Origin: Pseudofrankia saprophytica
GTDB taxonomy: Bacteria > Actinomycetota > Actinomycetes > Frankiales > Frankiaceae
DNA: 64,000 nucleotides
Assembly (NCBI RefSeq): GCF_000235425.2
Contig: NZ_KI912266.1
Location: 4,782,787-4,846,786, forward strand
Direction: 5' to 3'
In this document: positions 54,950 through 61,905 of the stretch, one piece after another
How positions within the stretch are numbered: the stretch's first letter is position 1
Layout: every line of letters starts with the position of its first letter
The notes under the pieces: model-generated
Databases searched by the model: none
The model's input: only the letters and a program-made list of their open reading frames with translations
Told to the model about the DNA's origin: nothing
Position numbers and translations under genes: made by a program

Positions 54950-55951
54950 ATGAAGGTCGCGATGCTGGCGCCGGTGGCGTGGCGCACCCCGCCTCGGCAC
55001 TACGGCCCGTGGGAGCAGATCGCCAGCCACCTCGCGGAGGGCCTGGTGGCCCGCGGCGTCGACGTCACGCTGTTCGCGACGCTGGATTCGCGCACGGCCG
55101 GGGAGCTGGACGGTGTGTGCCCGCACGGATACGCCGAGGACCCAGAGCTCGACGGCCGGGTGTGGGAGGCGTTGCACGTGGCCCACGCGCTGGCCCGCTC
55201 CGGCGAGTTCGATCTGGTGCACAACCATCTTGACTGGCTGCCGCTGGCGTTCGCGGCGCATTTCCGGGCGCCGATGGTCACGACGGTCCACGGATTCTCC
55301 GACCCGCGGATCGTCCCCGCCTATGCCCGGGCGGCCTCCACCTACGTCTCCATTTCCGACGCCGATCGCAGCCCGGAACTGGACTATGCCGCGACGGTGT
55401 ATCACGGCGTCGATCTGGCCGCCCTTCCGTTCTCGGCCGCCGGCGGGGAGGAACTGGTCGTCCTCGGCCGGATTCATCCCGACAAGGGCACCGCGGCGGC
55501 CATCGAGATCGCCCGCCTGGCGGGCCGGCGGCTGGTGATCTGCGGGATCGTTCAGGACGAGCGCTACTTCGCCGAACAGGTGCGGCCCCACGTCGACGGG
55601 GACGCCGTGAGCTACCTCGGGCCGGTCGGGCCGTCCAGGCGAGCGGAGGTGCTCGGTTCCGCCGCCGCACTGCTGCATCCGATCGCGTTCGACGAACCGT
55701 TCGGCCTGGCGGTCGTCGAGGCGATGGTGTGCGGCACGCCGGTCGTCGCCTACCGCCGTGGGGCCATGCGGGAGGTCGTGGACGAGGGAGTGACCGGGTT
55801 CCTGGTGGACGATCCGGCGGCGGCCGTGGCGGCGGTGGACCGCGCCACGAATCTCGACCGCGCCGCGTGCCGGGCAACGGCGAGCCGGCGGTTCTCGATG
55901 GCTCGCATGGTCACCGACTATCTCGCCCTCTACGAACGCATCCTGCGCTGA
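54950..55951 (+). CDS. Glycosyltransferase family 4-like
   Basis: Retaining GT-B glycosyltransferase, 333 residues. Start VAMLAPVAWRTPPRHYGPWE is the usual acceptor-domain N-terminus; VHNHLDWLPL and VTTVHGFSDP follow, donor domain VVLGRIHPDKGTAAAIEIAR, and the EPFGLAVVEAMVCGTPVVAYRRGAMREVV motif binds the nucleotide sugar. ATG 54950. It is convergent with the GH130-like operon (40 bp between), and together they suggest a small mannose-type oligosaccharide pathway. Confidence 0.9.
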   Translation: MKVAMLAPVAWRTPPRHYGPWEQIASHLAEGLVARGVDVTLFATLDSRTAGELDGVCPHGYAEDPELDGRVWEALHVAHALARSGEFDLVHNHLDWLPLAFAAHFRAPMVTTVHGFSDPRIVPAYARAASTYVSISDADRSPELDYAATVYHGVDLAALPFSAAGGEELVVLGRIHPDKGTAAAIEIARLAGRRLVICGIVQDERYFAEQVRPHVDGDAVSYLGPVGPSRRAEVLGSAAALLHPIAFDEPFGLAVVEAMVCGTPVVAYRRGAMREVVDEGVTGFLVDDPAAAVAAVDRATNLDRAACRATASRRFSMARMVTDYLALYERILR

Positions 55952-55991: not shown

Positions 55992-57500
55992 TCAGGCCCG
56001 GTCGGCCGGCCGGGCGGTCGCCCGGGTCATCCGCGCGAGCAGGGCGTCGACCGGCACGCTCGCCACCCCGACCCGGGAGTCACCGATCCCGTAGGGGAGC
56101 CAGAGCCGCCCGTCATGGACCAGGCCGCCGCAGGAGTACACGACGTTGGGGACATAGCCATCGGTCTCGGTCCGGCCCGGGGTGAGCAGCGGCTCGGGCA
56201 GCGTCGCGACCAGGGTGGACGGGTCCTCCAGGTCGAGCAGGATCGCTCCCACGGTGTACGTGCGCATCGGCCCGACGCCATGGGTGAGGACGAGCCAGCC
56301 CGCCGACGTCTCGATGGGTGAGCCGCAGTTGCCGACCTGAATGAGTTCGAACGGCGCCCTCGGCACATGCACCGGGCGGGACGGTTCCCAGACCAGCCCG
56401 TCGTCGGATGCCGTCAGACCGGTGGTCTCCCCGTCGGATCGGCAGAGCGCGAGGTGACGGCCGCCGACGAGCCGGGGGAACAGCGCCATCCCCTTGTTCC
56501 GGGCCGCCGGGCCGGCGAGCGGAGAGGACGTGAAGATCCGCAGGTCGGGGCTGGTGAGCAGTCGTGGCACGATGTGGGTGCCGTCATAGGCCGTGTATGT
56601 CGCTCGGTAGTCGACGGTTCCGTTCGGCGCGGTGAAACGGACGAACCGCGCGTCTTCCATCCCCTTGCTCTCGCTGGCGACAGTGGGCCACAGGACCCGC
56701 TGCGTCAGGGCGCTGTCCCGCGGGAACTCGACTCCTCGCAGCGATCCGGCGATGGACCGGATCCCGGCCAGGATGCCGGCGGCCTGCGGACGGCGCAGCA
56801 GTTCCGCGGGCATGCTGGTGAAGGCCTTTTCGAGCCCGTCTCCGGCCAGACTCCTGTCGGTGGCGTCGAGGACATCGAGGACAGAGCGCGTGACCTCGTC
56901 GCCGAGGCCATGCTCGGCGAGCAGGGAGCGCAGCCGGCCGCGCTCCCACGCGACCGGTACGACCATGCCGGTGGTGAGCGGGCCGGTGCGTGACTCCAGC
57001 CGCACCGTCGGGCCTGGGCCGAGCACGCCGACCGCGAAGGCGATCGAGGACACGTGCCCTTCGCCGACGGCGCGCAGGCTGAGCACCAGGCGCAGTGCGC
57101 CGGGTGGCAGCCCCGACTGGTCGGGGTGCGCGACCGCCGACGGATTGGTGACGGCCGCGCCTTCCACCGCGTACTCGGCGGTGAAGCTCGCGCCGAGCAG
57201 CAGCGTGCGCGCCGGCGAGAGCTCGGCCGGCGCCGCGACGCGGGGAGCCACGATCGCCGCGTGCCGCGCCAGGGTGCCGCGGTAGTCCCGGTGCCGGGGC
57301 TCGAACCGGTCGAGCAGGGCGGCGACGAGGCCGTCAACCTCGTCCTCGGCCAGAGCGAGCACCCGGTCCACGATGCCCGCGGCCCGGGAGTGCCCCTCGC
57401 CGCCCTCCTCGCCGGGGAGGAAGAGCTTCGCGATGACCCTGCCGGGATCCGCGGCCAGCGTGAGCGGAAGCCGGGTGACCAGGTCCGACTCAAGGGTCAC
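55992..57500 (-). CDS. GH130-like glycoside phosphorylase/hydrolase
   Basis: 502 residues. The C-terminal half carries the five-bladed propeller pattern: MEDARFVRF, ATYTAYDGTHI, PRNKGMALFPR-type RNKGMALFPR, GNCGSPIETSAGWLVLTHGVG and YSCGGLVHDGRLWLPYGIGDS. These match the beta-mannoside phosphorylase/hydrolase family GH130. The N-terminal 190 residues form an additional domain. ATG is not used: the GTG at 57498-57500 overlaps the preceding stop (GTGA), giving translational coupling. Phosphorolysis of beta-1,2- or 1,4-mannosides is the known family reaction; which applies is not clear. Confidence 0.85.
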   Translation of the reverse strand: MTLESDLVTRLPLTLAADPGRVIAKLFLPGEEGGEGHSRAAGIVDRVLALAEDEVDGLVAALLDRFEPRHRDYRGTLARHAAIVAPRVAAPAELSPARTLLLGASFTAEYAVEGAAVTNPSAVAHPDQSGLPPGALRLVLSLRAVGEGHVSSIAFAVGVLGPGPTVRLESRTGPLTTGMVVPVAWERGRLRSLLAEHGLGDEVTRSVLDVLDATDRSLAGDGLEKAFTSMPAELLRRPQAAGILAGIRSIAGSLRGVEFPRDSALTQRVLWPTVASESKGMEDARFVRFTAPNGTVDYRATYTAYDGTHIVPRLLTSPDLRIFTSSPLAGPAARNKGMALFPRLVGGRHLALCRSDGETTGLTASDDGLVWEPSRPVHVPRAPFELIQVGNCGSPIETSAGWLVLTHGVGPMRTYTVGAILLDLEDPSTLVATLPEPLLTPGRTETDGYVPNVVYSCGGLVHDGRLWLPYGIGDSRVGVASVPVDALLARMTRATARPADRA

Positions 57501-58516
57501 GGTGTACTCGGCGCCAGCAGCCGGCGGGCGTGCTGCTCCGTGGACAGCAGGGCGAGCGCGGACTCCGCCCCCTGGTTGGCGTTGCACCCCCCGGGTTCGA
57601 GGCCGTCGTGGCAACCACCGGTCGTGGCGTCGACCAGCGGCGTGCCGGCGTCGTTCTCGCCGAGGAACCAGCCGTGCGCCTGCCCGAGGCCGGTGAGCCA
57701 CCGGTTCTGACTGGTCGCCGCGTAGGCCCGCGCGCAGGCGTCCGCGATGGCCGCCGCCTCGATGGGCTGCTGGTCGAAGCCAGGCCTGGGATCGCCCCGA
57801 GGGCGCCGGCCACCGACGGGGGTCGGCGACAGCGTTCCGTCCCTGGTCTCCACGTGGAGCAGCCAGGCCAGCAACCGCAGGCCGTCCGCGCGTGCCGTCC
57901 GGTCTGACAGGCACATGCCCGCGAGGATCAGCGCCTCCGGCACCGCCGCGTTGGCGTAGCGCAGGGTGGGCTCCGGCCAGGGCCATCCGGGACTGTCGTC
58001 GATCGGGCCGATCGCGGCGACGGCGTCGGCGAGCAGAGTACGAGCCGGCTCGTCGTCCGGGTGGGCCAGCAGCAGCTCGCCCGCTCCGAGCGCGGCGAAG
58101 GTCATGGCCCGCAGCCAGGGGGAACGGCGGGCGGCACTGACCTGGAACCCGGCCCGGGCCCGCGCCCGCAGCCGCCGGGTGGGCGCCAGCGCCGCCGCGG
58201 TGCCCAGCCCCCACAGGGCCCGGCCCCAGCAGTCGCCGAGTTCGGGGTCGTCCCGCCAGCGGCCTTCGGTGTCGCGCCGGTTGACGACCCTTCCGTCCGG
58301 CGCCTGCGCCGCCAGCACGAAGTCGAGATAGAGCTCCAGCAGCCGAATGAGTTCCAGGGGTGGCGACGGCTCGCGAGACAGCACGACCAGCCCGCGCGCG
58401 ACGTCATCCACGCAGTACCCGTACTCCCGGCGCGGCACCGAGCCAAGAGCGTGCTCGAACAGGCCGATGTCGTCGCTGAGCCGGAAAAGATGAGCGAACG
58501 AGATCGCCGGCGTCAC
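57497..58516 (-). CDS. Alpha/alpha-toroid glycan-associated protein, function unknown
   Basis: 339 residues, helical repeats suggesting an (alpha/alpha)6-barrel. Conserved-looking phrases: SFAHLFRLSDDIGLFEHA, GYCVDDVARGLVVL, DPELGDCWGRALWGLG, and a final NANQGAESALALLS. Relatives sit beside GT4 and GH130 genes in actinobacteria and cyanobacteria but lack a proven reaction. Asp pairs (DD in CVDDVAR) and a Glu near the end could be catalytic. GTG start overlaps the GT4 stop (GTGA). Likely acts on the same glycan as its neighbours. Confidence 0.78.
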   Translation of the reverse strand: MTPAISFAHLFRLSDDIGLFEHALGSVPRREYGYCVDDVARGLVVLSREPSPPLELIRLLELYLDFVLAAQAPDGRVVNRRDTEGRWRDDPELGDCWGRALWGLGTAAALAPTRRLRARARAGFQVSAARRSPWLRAMTFAALGAGELLLAHPDDEPARTLLADAVAAIGPIDDSPGWPWPEPTLRYANAAVPEALILAGMCLSDRTARADGLRLLAWLLHVETRDGTLSPTPVGGRRPRGDPRPGFDQQPIEAAAIADACARAYAATSQNRWLTGLGQAHGWFLGENDAGTPLVDATTGGCHDGLEPGGCNANQGAESALALLSTEQHARRLLAPSTP

Positions 58517-59763
58517 CGGGCCACCGTCGCCGTCGCCGTCATCGACATGGGCGTGGGCGCTGGCGCGAGCGCCCGCTGGGGCGTGGGCACGGGTGCGACA
58601 CCCGGCCTGCTCCCGGTGCGGGCGGCCAGCCCGGTGGCGAGCCGGCGGTAGCGCCGCGCCACCGCGGGCCACAGCAGCTCGGGTGCGTGGGTGGCGGCGG
58701 CGCTCGTCAGCCCGCGGGCGACGCCGTCATCGGTGAGGATGCCGCGCACCGCCGCCGCGATCTCCGCCGGGTCACCGTGTGGCACGAGCAGGCCGGTGCC
58801 GTCGCCGAGCAGCTCGACCGCGTGCGGGAAGCGGGTGGCCACGACTGGCCGCAGCGCCGCGACCGCCTCGATGAGGATGCCGGAGGTCACCTGGTCGACG
58901 GAGTCATAGGGCAGCAGGACCACGTCGGCGCCGCTGACGAGGTCGGCGAGCGATTCACTGTCGAGGTAGCGGGGGTCGAAGGCGACGGAGTCGGCCACGC
59001 CGAGCCGGCTGGCCAGCGCGGCCAGCCCTTCCCGGTACGCCTCGCCGTCCCGGGCGAGGACCTTGGGATGGGTCTGGCCCGCGACGAGGTAGCGCGGGGC
59101 CGGGTCGAGGTCGGCCAGCTGGGCCATCGCCGCGATGCCCCACTCGATGCCCTTGCCTGGCCCGAGCAGGCCCCAGGTGAGGATGGTCGGCCGGGCGGAC
59201 CGCGCCGGCGTGGCGCGGCGGTTGTCGGCCGCGCCGTGCGGGATCACCGTGACCCGGTACGGGTGGACGTGGTACCCGTCGAGCAGCCGGTCCCGCGCGG
59301 TCTCGGTCATCACGACGACGGCGTCCGCGGACGCGACCAGTGCCTCCATGACCTCGCGCTGGTGCTGGGACGGGCTCACGAGCACGGTGTGCAGGACGAC
59401 CACCACCGGCACCTCGAGATTGTCGAGAACCTCGATCACCTCGTCGCCGTCCGGCCCTCCGTAGACCCCGTACTCGTGCTGGACGACCGCGACGTCGAAA
59501 CCGTTCAGGAGCCGCGCCGCGCGGCGCGGGCCACCCGCGGTTCCGGCCACCAGGTCCCCCACGACGGCCGCTGGTCGCCGGCCGGGCCCCGCCGGCGCCT
59601 CGAGCAGTCGCACCACCCCACTGGTGGCGCCCGGCGCCGCGCTGGCCAGTTCGCCGAGAAGGGCCGCCGTGAAGGTGGCGAGCCCGCACTGCGTCGGGAA
59701 ATAGGTGCTCAGAAAGCCGTAACGGAGGGGCACGAAGGCCCGCCTTCCGGTAGTTGCCGACAC
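58513..59763 (-). CDS. Glycosyltransferase family 4-like, first gene of the GT/GH130 operon
   Basis: 416 residues, GT-B fold. YGFLSTYFPTQCGLATFTAAL is the typical N-terminal motif, VVQHEYGVYGG and VVLHTVLVSPSQHQREVM follow, and the donor domain has ILTWGLLGPGKGIEWGI and LLPYDSVDQVTSGILIEAVAALRPVVAT. A Pro/Thr-rich tail of 50 residues ends the protein. GTG 59763 is the first start; GTG 59733 (GGAAGG upstream, protein opening VPLRYGF) is an attractive alternative. It is the first gene of an operon with 4-bp GTGA overlaps throughout. A CIRCE-like element lies 143 bp upstream. Confidence 0.88.
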   Translation of the reverse strand: MSATTGRRAFVPLRYGFLSTYFPTQCGLATFTAALLGELASAAPGATSGVVRLLEAPAGPGRRPAAVVGDLVAGTAGGPRRAARLLNGFDVAVVQHEYGVYGGPDGDEVIEVLDNLEVPVVVVLHTVLVSPSQHQREVMEALVASADAVVVMTETARDRLLDGYHVHPYRVTVIPHGAADNRRATPARSARPTILTWGLLGPGKGIEWGIAAMAQLADLDPAPRYLVAGQTHPKVLARDGEAYREGLAALASRLGVADSVAFDPRYLDSESLADLVSGADVVLLPYDSVDQVTSGILIEAVAALRPVVATRFPHAVELLGDGTGLLVPHGDPAEIAAAVRGILTDDGVARGLTSAAATHAPELLWPAVARRYRRLATGLAARTGSRPGVAPVPTPQRALAPAPTPMSMTATATVAR

Positions 59764-59905
59764 CGAGTCGGCCGGCGGTCACGCGAGCGCTGCGCTCCGT
59801 GGATGCACGATGTGAGGCTCACGCCCGCGGCGAGAGGTGCCGGCACCGGCGGGGGCCAGCAACGAAAAGATGGCCATCTGGCCCAGACACTCGTCGCGCC
59901 AGAGG

Positions 59906-59932
59906 TTGGCACTCGATCCTATTGAGTGCTAA
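59906..59932. promoter_or_regulatory. CIRCE-like element (HrcA operator)
   Basis: TTGGCACTC-N9-GAGTGCTAA. The textbook CIRCE consensus is TTAGCACTC-N9-GAGTGCTAA, so 17 of 18 arm positions and the exact 9-nt spacer agree. HrcA binds this site to repress heat-shock genes such as groESL. No chaperone gene lies in either direction; the nearest gene is the GT4/GH130 operon whose start is 143 bp away (minus strand), while the MFS gene starts about 495 bp away on the other side. Confidence 0.75.
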
Positions 59933-60327
59933 CTCATTTGTAGCCCTCTCAAACCCCAAAAGCAAACGGAGACAGCCCCGGGTCTCGCCGTGTCATTTGG
60001 CGCACCAGATCGCCACTTCCGGTGGCACCCGGAGCTGGTCGCCCCGGTGTCGTCCTGGCACCCACAGGCGCGCCATCCGATGCCACGACCACCGTCGCCA
60101 TTTGCGTCCGCAAACGTGAGATTGCATACTATTACTTTCCGTCATTGTATGAGCGCAAATTGGGAATTCTCCTTCCGCGCAGGGCTGTACCGGTCGCCGG
60201 ACGCCGGTCGTCTCGACGGTCCGCCGATATGTTTCGCGGTCCGCCGACCGCGAATTCCCAGCCGTGCGGCGGGAACTCGGCAGCGATCAGGCGACGCCCG
60301 TGTCAGGACATGGGTCGCCGTCCGCTC

Positions 60328-60391
60328 GTGCATGATGCACGCCGCATGCACGATGCAGGTGAGCTGGCCAGCGCACATGATGTGCGTCATG
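60328..60391. promoter_or_regulatory. Cluster of palindromes upstream of the MFS gene
   Basis: GTGCAT-G-ATGCAC (60328-60340), GCAT-GCACG-ATGC (60344-60356), GCACAT-G-ATGTGC (60373-60385), and an overlapping CATGA-N6-TCATG (60376-60391) lie 36-99 bp upstream of the predicted MFS start. Two of them have perfect 6-bp arms around a single G. Repeated, related half-sites suggest cooperative binding of a TetR, MarR or similar repressor. Confidence 0.5.
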
Positions 60392-60426
60392 CATTCATCC
60401 AGGCCCAGCGGGTGGGGCCCCTGCCA

Positions 60427-61905
60427 GTGAGCGCCCCGCTGTCCCCGCCGGCGCCGACGCCCCCGGTGGCCCCCGTGTCCAGCCGGCGAGTCGTGGGTGT
60501 GCTGGCCGGCGCCGGCACCATGGTCTCGCTGATGCAGACCCTGGTCATCCCGCTGCTCCCCCAGCTGCCCAGGCTGCTGCACACCAGCACCGCCAACGCT
60601 TCCTGGGTGATCACCGCGACGCTGCTCACCTCGGCCGTCGCCACGCCGCTGCTGGGCCGGCTCGGGGACCTCTACGGCAGGCGCCGGCTCATGCTGACGG
60701 CCGTGGTGTCCCTGACGGCGGGCTCGCTGGTCTGCGCGCTGGGCTCGACCCTGCTCCTCATGGTCCTGGGGCGAACGCTGCAGGGCCTGGGTATCTCCGT
60801 CATCCCGCTCGGCATCAGCATCATGCGAGACGTGCTGCCGCCGCGGCGGCTGGGCCCGGCGGTCGCGCTGATGAGCTCCTCGCTCGGCGTGGGCGGCGCG
60901 CTCGGTCTGCCGCTCTCGGCCACCGTCGCCCAGCATCTCGGCTGGCACGCGCCGTTCTGGTTCGCCGCCGGACTGGGCTGCGTCTTCACCGTACTGATCA
61001 TCACCGTGGTGCCGGAATCGCCGGTCCGGGTACGGCAGCGGTTCGACGCCGCCGGTGCGGTCGGGTTGGCGGTGGGGCTGGTGGCCCTGCTCCTGCCGAT
61101 CTCGAAGGGTGGTGACTGGGGTTGGACCAGTACGCCCGTACTCGGGCTCCTCGTGGTCTCAGCGATCGTCCTCGGGTCCTGGGCGAGGTGGGAGCTGCGT
61201 GCCACGGCGCCGATCGTGGACCTGCGCAGCAGTGCCCGCCGGCCCGTGCTGATGACCAATCTCGCCACGGTCGCCGTCGGGTTCGCGATGTACTCCGCGA
61301 ACCTGCTCGGGCCGCAGATGCTCCAGCTGCCCACGGCGACTGGTTACGGCCAGGGCCTGTCCATGCTCCAGGCCGGCCTGCTGATGGCGCCCGGCGGCCT
61401 GACCATGATGGCGTTCTCCCCGCTGGCCGCGCGGATGAGCCAGGCTCTCGGCCCACGGTCCTGCCTGCTGCTCGGCAGCATGGTCATCTGCGCTGGCAAC
61501 GTCCTCGCCCAGCTGCTTATCGGCACCGCGTGGGGCGTCCTGGTGTTTAACATCGTGAACAGCGCCGGTGTCGGCTTCGCCTACGCCGCCATGCCGAACC
61601 TGATCATGAGATCGGTGCCGGTGTCCGAGACGGCCGCGGCCAACGGCCTCAACTCGCTGGCCCGTTCGCTGGGCACGTCCACCGCCAGCACGGTGGTCGG
61701 CCTCGTCCTCGGCCAGCTGACGATCCAGCTCGGATCGGTCGCCGTGCCCTCCGAGACCGGCATCCGCGTCTGCCTGGCGATCGGCGCCGCCGGAGCGCTC
61801 GTCGCCACCCTGGTCGAGCTGGCCATCCCGGTCCGCCCGGCGCCCGAGCCGCCGAAGGCCCCGATCGGCGACCTTGAGACGATCACGAGGCCCGCCACCA
61901 GTTGA
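60427..61905 (+). CDS. MFS drug exporter, DHA2 (14-TM) family
   Basis: Proton-driven efflux protein of about 492 residues. The antiporter loop motif GRLGDLYGRRRLMLTAVV follows the second helix, motif C-like GVGGALGLPLSATVAQHLGWHAPFW occurs around the fifth helix, and about 14 hydrophobic segments are countable. It belongs to the EmrB/QacA type. GTG 60427 was chosen because it is next to a GGGTGGGG site and lies after the palindrome cluster, with a Pro-rich cytoplasmic N-terminus. Upstream in-frame ATGs would pull the palindromes into the coding region and are disfavoured. Substrates may be antibiotics or the pathway intermediates nearby. Confidence 0.88.
   Translation: MSAPLSPPAPTPPVAPVSSRRVVGVLAGAGTMVSLMQTLVIPLLPQLPRLLHTSTANASWVITATLLTSAVATPLLGRLGDLYGRRRLMLTAVVSLTAGSLVCALGSTLLLMVLGRTLQGLGISVIPLGISIMRDVLPPRRLGPAVALMSSSLGVGGALGLPLSATVAQHLGWHAPFWFAAGLGCVFTVLIITVVPESPVRVRQRFDAAGAVGLAVGLVALLLPISKGGDWGWTSTPVLGLLVVSAIVLGSWARWELRATAPIVDLRSSARRPVLMTNLATVAVGFAMYSANLLGPQMLQLPTATGYGQGLSMLQAGLLMAPGGLTMMAFSPLAARMSQALGPRSCLLLGSMVICAGNVLAQLLIGTAWGVLVFNIVNSAGVGFAYAAMPNLIMRSVPVSETAAANGLNSLARSLGTSTASTVVGLVLGQLTIQLGSVAVPSETGIRVCLAIGAAGALVATLVELAIPVRPAPEPPKAPIGDLETITRPATS

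Follow-up and report, generated by a model that had tools for sequence, protein, structure and literature searches.

A CIRCE element directly upstream of a sugar-enzyme operon in Pseudofrankia saprophytica (genome G000) is very probably an HrcA operator inherited from the one-time heat-shock operon groEL3-GT4-toroid-GH130, from which groEL3 was deleted and in which control was kept over GT4, toroid and GH130. The site lies in the window, that is, the whole stretch of 64,000 nt of DNA that was analysed. According to the proposed history, the ancestral groEL3-GT4-toroid-GH130 operon would have been under CIRCE, and in the ancestor of G000 and its nearest relative, G005, groEL3 would have been removed by a deletion ending in a short direct repeat, bringing its promoter, operator and leader directly before GT4. 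HrcA most likely represses the GT4 promoter at normal temperature and lets go on heat shock, so that GT4, toroid and GH130 would now be made as heat-shock proteins. The features of the window are as follows.

59960 to 59965, minus strand: predicted -35 element, TTGCTT, the same in all eight loci that lack groEL3 and keep CIRCE; TTGCAT before groEL3 of G008
59937 to 59942, minus strand: predicted -10 element, TACAAA, 17 nt from the -35 element and just upstream of CIRCE; TATAAG, TATACA or TATAAA in relatives
59906 to 59932, minus strand: CIRCE (predicted HrcA operator), in the sense towards GT4 TTAGCACTC-AATAGGATC-GAGTGCCAA, conserved 5' of GT4 orthologs
59813 to 59905, minus strand: former leader of groEL3, agreeing with that of G008 at 81 of 93 aligned bases (score 94, against 32 at most in 500 shuffles)
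59813 to 59819, minus strand: putative groEL3 deletion scar, AGCCTCA, where the leader and spacer matches overlap
59743 to 59819, minus strand: former spacer between groEL3 and GT4, agreeing with that of G008 at 69 of 75 aligned bases (score 101, against 34 at most in 500 shuffles)
58513 to 59733, minus strand: GT4 glycosyltransferase (Pfam Glyco_trans_1_4), first gene of the operon, with its GTG start at 59733 placed from relatives
57497 to 58525, minus strand: alpha/alpha-toroid protein (modelled), without a Pfam family, overlapping the end of GT4
55992 to 57494, minus strand: GH130 (Pfam domain)
54950 to 55951, plus strand: second GT4, convergent and outside the CIRCE transcript, also next to the operon in many relatives

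The operator and the HrcA regulon of the genome

The sequence TTGGCACTC-GATCCTATT-GAGTGCTAA is located at 59906-59932 and differs from TTAGCACTC-N9-GAGTGCTAA by one mismatch in 18 arm bases, with a spacer of exactly 9 bp. It is the only CIRCE match in the window with at most three mismatches, and 100 shuffled versions of the window contained a mean of 0.01 such matches (one shuffle with a match). The pattern scan and the shuffles thus bear out the preliminary description, which had reported a CIRCE element matching at 17 of 18 arm positions with exact spacing. Gene calls and Pfam searches agreed with it as well that the nearest start is that of GT4, heading a GT4/toroid/GH130 operon on the minus strand, and that no chaperone gene lies near CIRCE in the window. 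A scan of 58000-61500 against Rfam returned no match.

The assignment also held up genome-wide. Across 9,978,592 bases in two contigs, five CIRCE sites were found at a limit of three mismatches, the window site being the best of them, and the reversed pattern gave no match in the whole genome at the same limit. The other four sites precede groES-groEL1 (325856), groEL2 (1601304), hrcA (6582518) and a zinc-ribbon gene (2229098), and the groEL2 site is accompanied by an additional CIRCE copy with four mismatches, the two starting 35 bases apart. In M. tuberculosis, ruc encodes a zinc-ribbon protein and lies beside a cyclo-ligase-like gene. The CIRCE at 2229098 (L013 3099-3125; three mismatches) is followed after 17 nt by the GTG start of a Zn_ribbon_8 gene, which adjoins a 5-FTHF cyclo-ligase gene; a chance match was considered for this site and rejected because of its position before a ruc-like gene. 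A single HrcA exceeds the Pfam cut-off in the genome, its own gene has CIRCE upstream, and two groEL genes remain. The other four sites are on genes of the kinds expected of HrcA, leaving that of the window as the one outlier. Its targets, GT4, toroid and GH130, include no chaperone, although a chaperone target is usual rather than defining for the regulon, and judged by sequence the site belongs to the HrcA/CIRCE regulon.

Loss of groEL3 in Frankiaceae

Searches for GT4 orthologs (E at most 1e-40) recovered 18 loci in 17 of 35 genomes of the family. In eight loci from seven genomes (G008, G009 twice, G011, G015, G001, G018 and G019), groEL3 ends directly before GT4, in the order groEL3-GT4-toroid-GH130. 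Another eight (G000, G003, G005, G014, G017, G024, G027 and G028) have no groEL and carry CIRCE with one to four mismatches directly before GT4. The last two have neither groEL3 nor an intact operator, CIRCE having decayed to five mismatches in G004 and to six in G006, where GT4 is frame-split; retention is therefore not universal. Among the groEL3-GT4 loci, only the G008 contig extends beyond the 5' end of groEL3, and there a CIRCE with one mismatch starts 142 nt before the gene; in the other seven of the eight, the contig ends inside groEL3, so that CIRCE is not observable.

Phylogenetic analysis placed the eight GT4-linked groELs and an inverted copy from G003 in one clade (support 0.988), here named groEL3, which is sister to another Frankiaceae groEL clade with CIRCE of two to four mismatches (L067, L072, L096, L106, L110, L111, L112 and L114). 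The inverted G003 sequence is a groEL3-like C-terminus behind GH130 at the end of contig 98 (L086 10572-10901); this genome has a groEL remnant before GT4 as well, and the inverted C-terminus is perhaps a relocated copy. G009 possesses two groEL3-GT4 operons (contigs 198 and 383) from different tree clades, suggesting horizontal transfer or an old duplication.

In the tree of GT4, toroid and GH130, both arrangements are present in each of the three main clades. A hand count gave at least four changes of arrangement when gain is treated as equal to loss, and five losses when only loss is allowed (G017; G014; G024/G027/G028; G000/G003/G005; G004/G006). Loss is favoured because 5' remnants of groEL persist between CIRCE and GT4. 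Nine spacers, G028 being outside this set, were each compared with 200 shuffles, and remnants scored above all shuffles in three of them (G003, 89 versus 32; G004, 60 versus 35; and, weakly, G014, 42 versus 37); the spacers of G000 (the window), G005, G006, G017, G024 and G027 gave no groEL remnant above shuffles. In G024, G027 and G028, the GTG of GT4 is directly behind the former groEL3 Shine-Dalgarno sequence.

In the window, the matches to the groEL3 leader and to the groEL3-GT4 spacer of G008 overlap in AGCCTCA, and AGCCGCA flanks groEL3 on both sides in G008, which puts the end of the deletion in a direct repeat of 7 bp. The two flanks of groEL3 in G008 share three 7-mers, so recombination at this AGCCTCA/AGCCGCA repeat is likely, though unproven, as the event that removed groEL3. 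The preliminary description had named a remnant of a relocated groES promoter as an alternative origin of the site. It was right in that the promoter appears to be that of a lost chaperonin, but the chaperonin is groEL3 of the same operon and not groES, and the site does not have the look of a dead remnant.

Probable persistence of control over the sugar operon

A promoter-like element, TTGCTT-17 nt-TACAAA (59965-59937), precedes CIRCE on the GT4 strand, and a TA-rich hexamer is equally spaced from TTGCTT in all eight loci that lack groEL3 and keep CIRCE. The operator itself has changed far less than its surroundings: among these eight promoters, the arms show 4 substitutions in 18 columns against 82 in 78 flanking columns (P 0.00018, from 18 random columns). 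Between G000 and G005, which have a common scar, the arms differ at none of 18 positions and the flanks at 17 of 78 (P 0.02), and dN/dS values of 0.16-0.30 for GT4, toroid and GH130 indicate purifying selection on the genes. A symmetric pair of changes in the arms of G024, G027 and G028 leaves the dyad intact, TTAACACTC or CTAACACTC with GAGTGTCAA. Some of the conservation of the arms may date from before groEL3 was lost. CIRCE is apparently still kept by selection, and since its arms are more conserved than the flanks and the genes are under purifying selection, heat-shock control probably persists.

These comparisons bear on the possibility that only a dead relic of the groEL3 promoter is left at the site, with GT4 transcribed from another promoter and HrcA irrelevant. 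The absence of groEL3 from the window locus and the decay of CIRCE in G004 and G006 are compatible with such a relic, and a strict sigma-70 scan reported no promoter at CIRCE. The 120 nt upstream of CIRCE also have little likeness to G008, with no similarity above shuffles (score 20; best shuffle, 28), so that only short elements speak for homology of the promoter to that of G008. A relic is nevertheless unlikely in view of the unchanged arms in G000 and G005 amid diverged flanks, the same imbalance among the eight promoters, the promoter-like element kept in all eight loci and, in G024, G027 and G028, the start of GT4 right behind the former groEL3 Shine-Dalgarno sequence. Our conclusion is that the operator probably still works and that HrcA probably makes the GT4-toroid-GH130 operon inducible by heat. 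The earlier proposal of an HrcA operator serving the GT4 operon is thus strengthened by the retention of the site before GT4 in relatives and by the adjoining conserved promoter-like element, its heat response being a prediction from these sequences.

CIRCE is palindromic, and its other neighbour is an MFS transporter gene on the plus strand that reads away from it, so the site could in principle control this divergent gene. Such control is very improbable: G005 keeps CIRCE, yet at that place it has only residues 27-71 of the mechanical MFS ORF, without an MFS domain and with UbiA next, and the conserved promoter-like elements face GT4. The MFS gene was accordingly rejected as the CIRCE target. 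The least probable alternative, that the palindrome is a chance match or the site of another regulator, draws on the site being known from sequence, and is countered by the 0.01 matches expected per window, by the four other genomic sites at known kinds of HrcA target and by a place and sequence that are the same as those of the groEL3 CIRCE in G008; a chance palindrome was rejected by the window shuffles and the genome-wide scan.

Two further observations concern the region upstream of CIRCE. The MFS domain gene (about 60500-61905, between CIRCE and UbiA) has no counterpart at the same place in G005, indicating either a recent insertion in the window or a loss in G005. At 60125-60151, about 190 bp upstream of CIRCE, there is a 27-bp imperfect palindrome, CATACAATGAC-N5-GTAATAGTATG in the minus-strand reading, which is identical in G005 and has no exact match in the loci of the other genomes compared; a different regulator may use it as its operator.

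Products of the operon and comparison with known systems

The mechanical ORF of GT4 starts at 59763, and a Shine-Dalgarno sequence, GGAAGG, is located at 59743-59748. A structure model of the middle protein (pLDDT 87) shows an alpha/alpha toroid, with fold matches to GH9 glucosaminidases and cellobiose 2-epimerases, and 7tem is the protein's closest chain by both sequence profile and fold. The GH130 domain scored 94 bits against a Pfam cut-off of 26, and the protein reached 110 bits against the curated beta-1,2-mannobiose phosphorylase equivalog, below the cut-off of 450. Its best solved relative in a PDB search is the 1,2-beta-oligomannan phosphorylase 9fj8, with residues 267-480 of 500 matched. 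The GT4-toroid-GH130 enzymes most likely synthesise a mannose-containing oligosaccharide or glycan and also turn it over.

The operon is common in actinobacteria, with a GT4 match at 1e-50 in 48 of 393 sampled genomes of the class, Frankiaceae included. In 20 of 20 actinomycete loci outside the family, some of them on contigs that end near GT4, there was no CIRCE at up to three mismatches and no groEL. A second set, genome_contigs, gave at least 588 loci, of which the best 80 were analysed; 78 of these are from outside the family, and there is partial overlap with the 20 loci. These best 80 contained no CIRCE at up to three mismatches and no match to DnaK, GrpE, DnaJ, Hsp20 or GroES queries, and groEL occurred in two, one from Frankia and one from an Acidimicrobiia MAG. 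In the MAG (L219 5207-8128), groEL is divergent from GT4 across a short gap, with no CIRCE at up to three mismatches.

On sphingomonad plasmids, relatives of GT4, toroid and GH130 (about 36-37% identity) likewise adjoin heat-shock genes. Plasmids of Sphingobium amiense and S. xenophagum have the order groEL-manC-manA-GT4/toroid-GH130-phosphomannomutase, and in S. amiense groES is annotated too, with a CIRCE of two mismatches before it. Other sphingomonad plasmids carry manC-GT4/toroid-GH130 beside grpE and dnaK, and in one case hsp20. These operons differ from that of the window in that GT4 and toroid are fused, GDP-mannose genes are included, groEL is still present and the hosts belong to another phylum. 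Four plasmids (L130, L158, L152 and L153) have GT4/toroid-GH130 and GDP-mannose genes beside groEL or grpE-dnaK, and three of the four were typed as conjugative; a mobile heat-tolerance module is possible. In the stretches compared, the plasmid loci of Sinorhizobium, Deinococcus, Ilyobacter, Rhizobium and Novosphingobium have no annotated chaperone gene, and chaperone genes lie beside the operon in four of nine plasmid records, the four coming from two close-knit groups and the nine being a non-random sample of the 28 listed. From the gene orders in Frankiaceae and sphingomonads, we infer two or more origins for the link between the sugar operon and heat-shock genes.

Deletion of a groEL paralog, with its operator passing to sugar genes, would be a route by which the HrcA regulon gains a non-chaperone member, apparently taken several times in one family. 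It points to a sugar branch as a candidate part of the heat-shock response in bacteria, and the sphingomonad plasmids offer parallel cases. Mannogen may have a role in heat tolerance; a protective role of a mannogen-like mannan on heat shock in bacteria can be offered as speculation. We raise only tentatively, and with more doubt than confidence, the broader idea that bacteria from two or more phyla produce, within the chaperonin heat-shock response, their own counterpart of mannogen as a mannose-based protectant or reserve, GT4-toroid-GH130 having come repeatedly under HrcA or chaperone control and the Frankiaceae operon having been worth keeping in the regulon after the loss of groEL.

Excerpts of PMC8950772 describe Leishmania GT108 enzymes as having a fold and mechanism in common with bacterial GH130 and as turning over the beta-1,2-mannan reserve mannogen; that system differs in being eukaryotic and in belonging to another CAZy family. 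In Thermoanaerobacter, the excerpted text of PMC4264767 places the GH130 beta-1,2-mannoside phosphorylases Teth514_1788/1789 in a cluster with GT4 and a mannose-1-phosphate guanylyltransferase. The window operon resembles this cluster in its GT4 partner and in a GH130 that is nearest to the beta-1,2-mannoside phosphorylase kind in the PDB search, but it has no transporter or guanylyltransferase and adds the toroid protein and a predicted heat-shock operator.

Among the matches listed for CIRCE/HrcA, GH130 with groEL, and groEL, HrcA or heat shock in Frankia, titles and abstract openings named no such operon, a weak hint that it is unpublished. The HrcA/CIRCE regulon itself is known: in the portion of PMC7448276 available, that of M. 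tuberculosis comprises groES, groEL1, groEL2 and ruc. The same repressor and operator occur in P. saprophytica, where four sites are on the same kinds of gene plus hrcA. In contrast to that actinobacterial regulon, the extra member here is a chaperone-free sugar operon, putatively gained by deletion of a groEL paralog, and this inheritance of CIRCE by a sugar operon is the new part.
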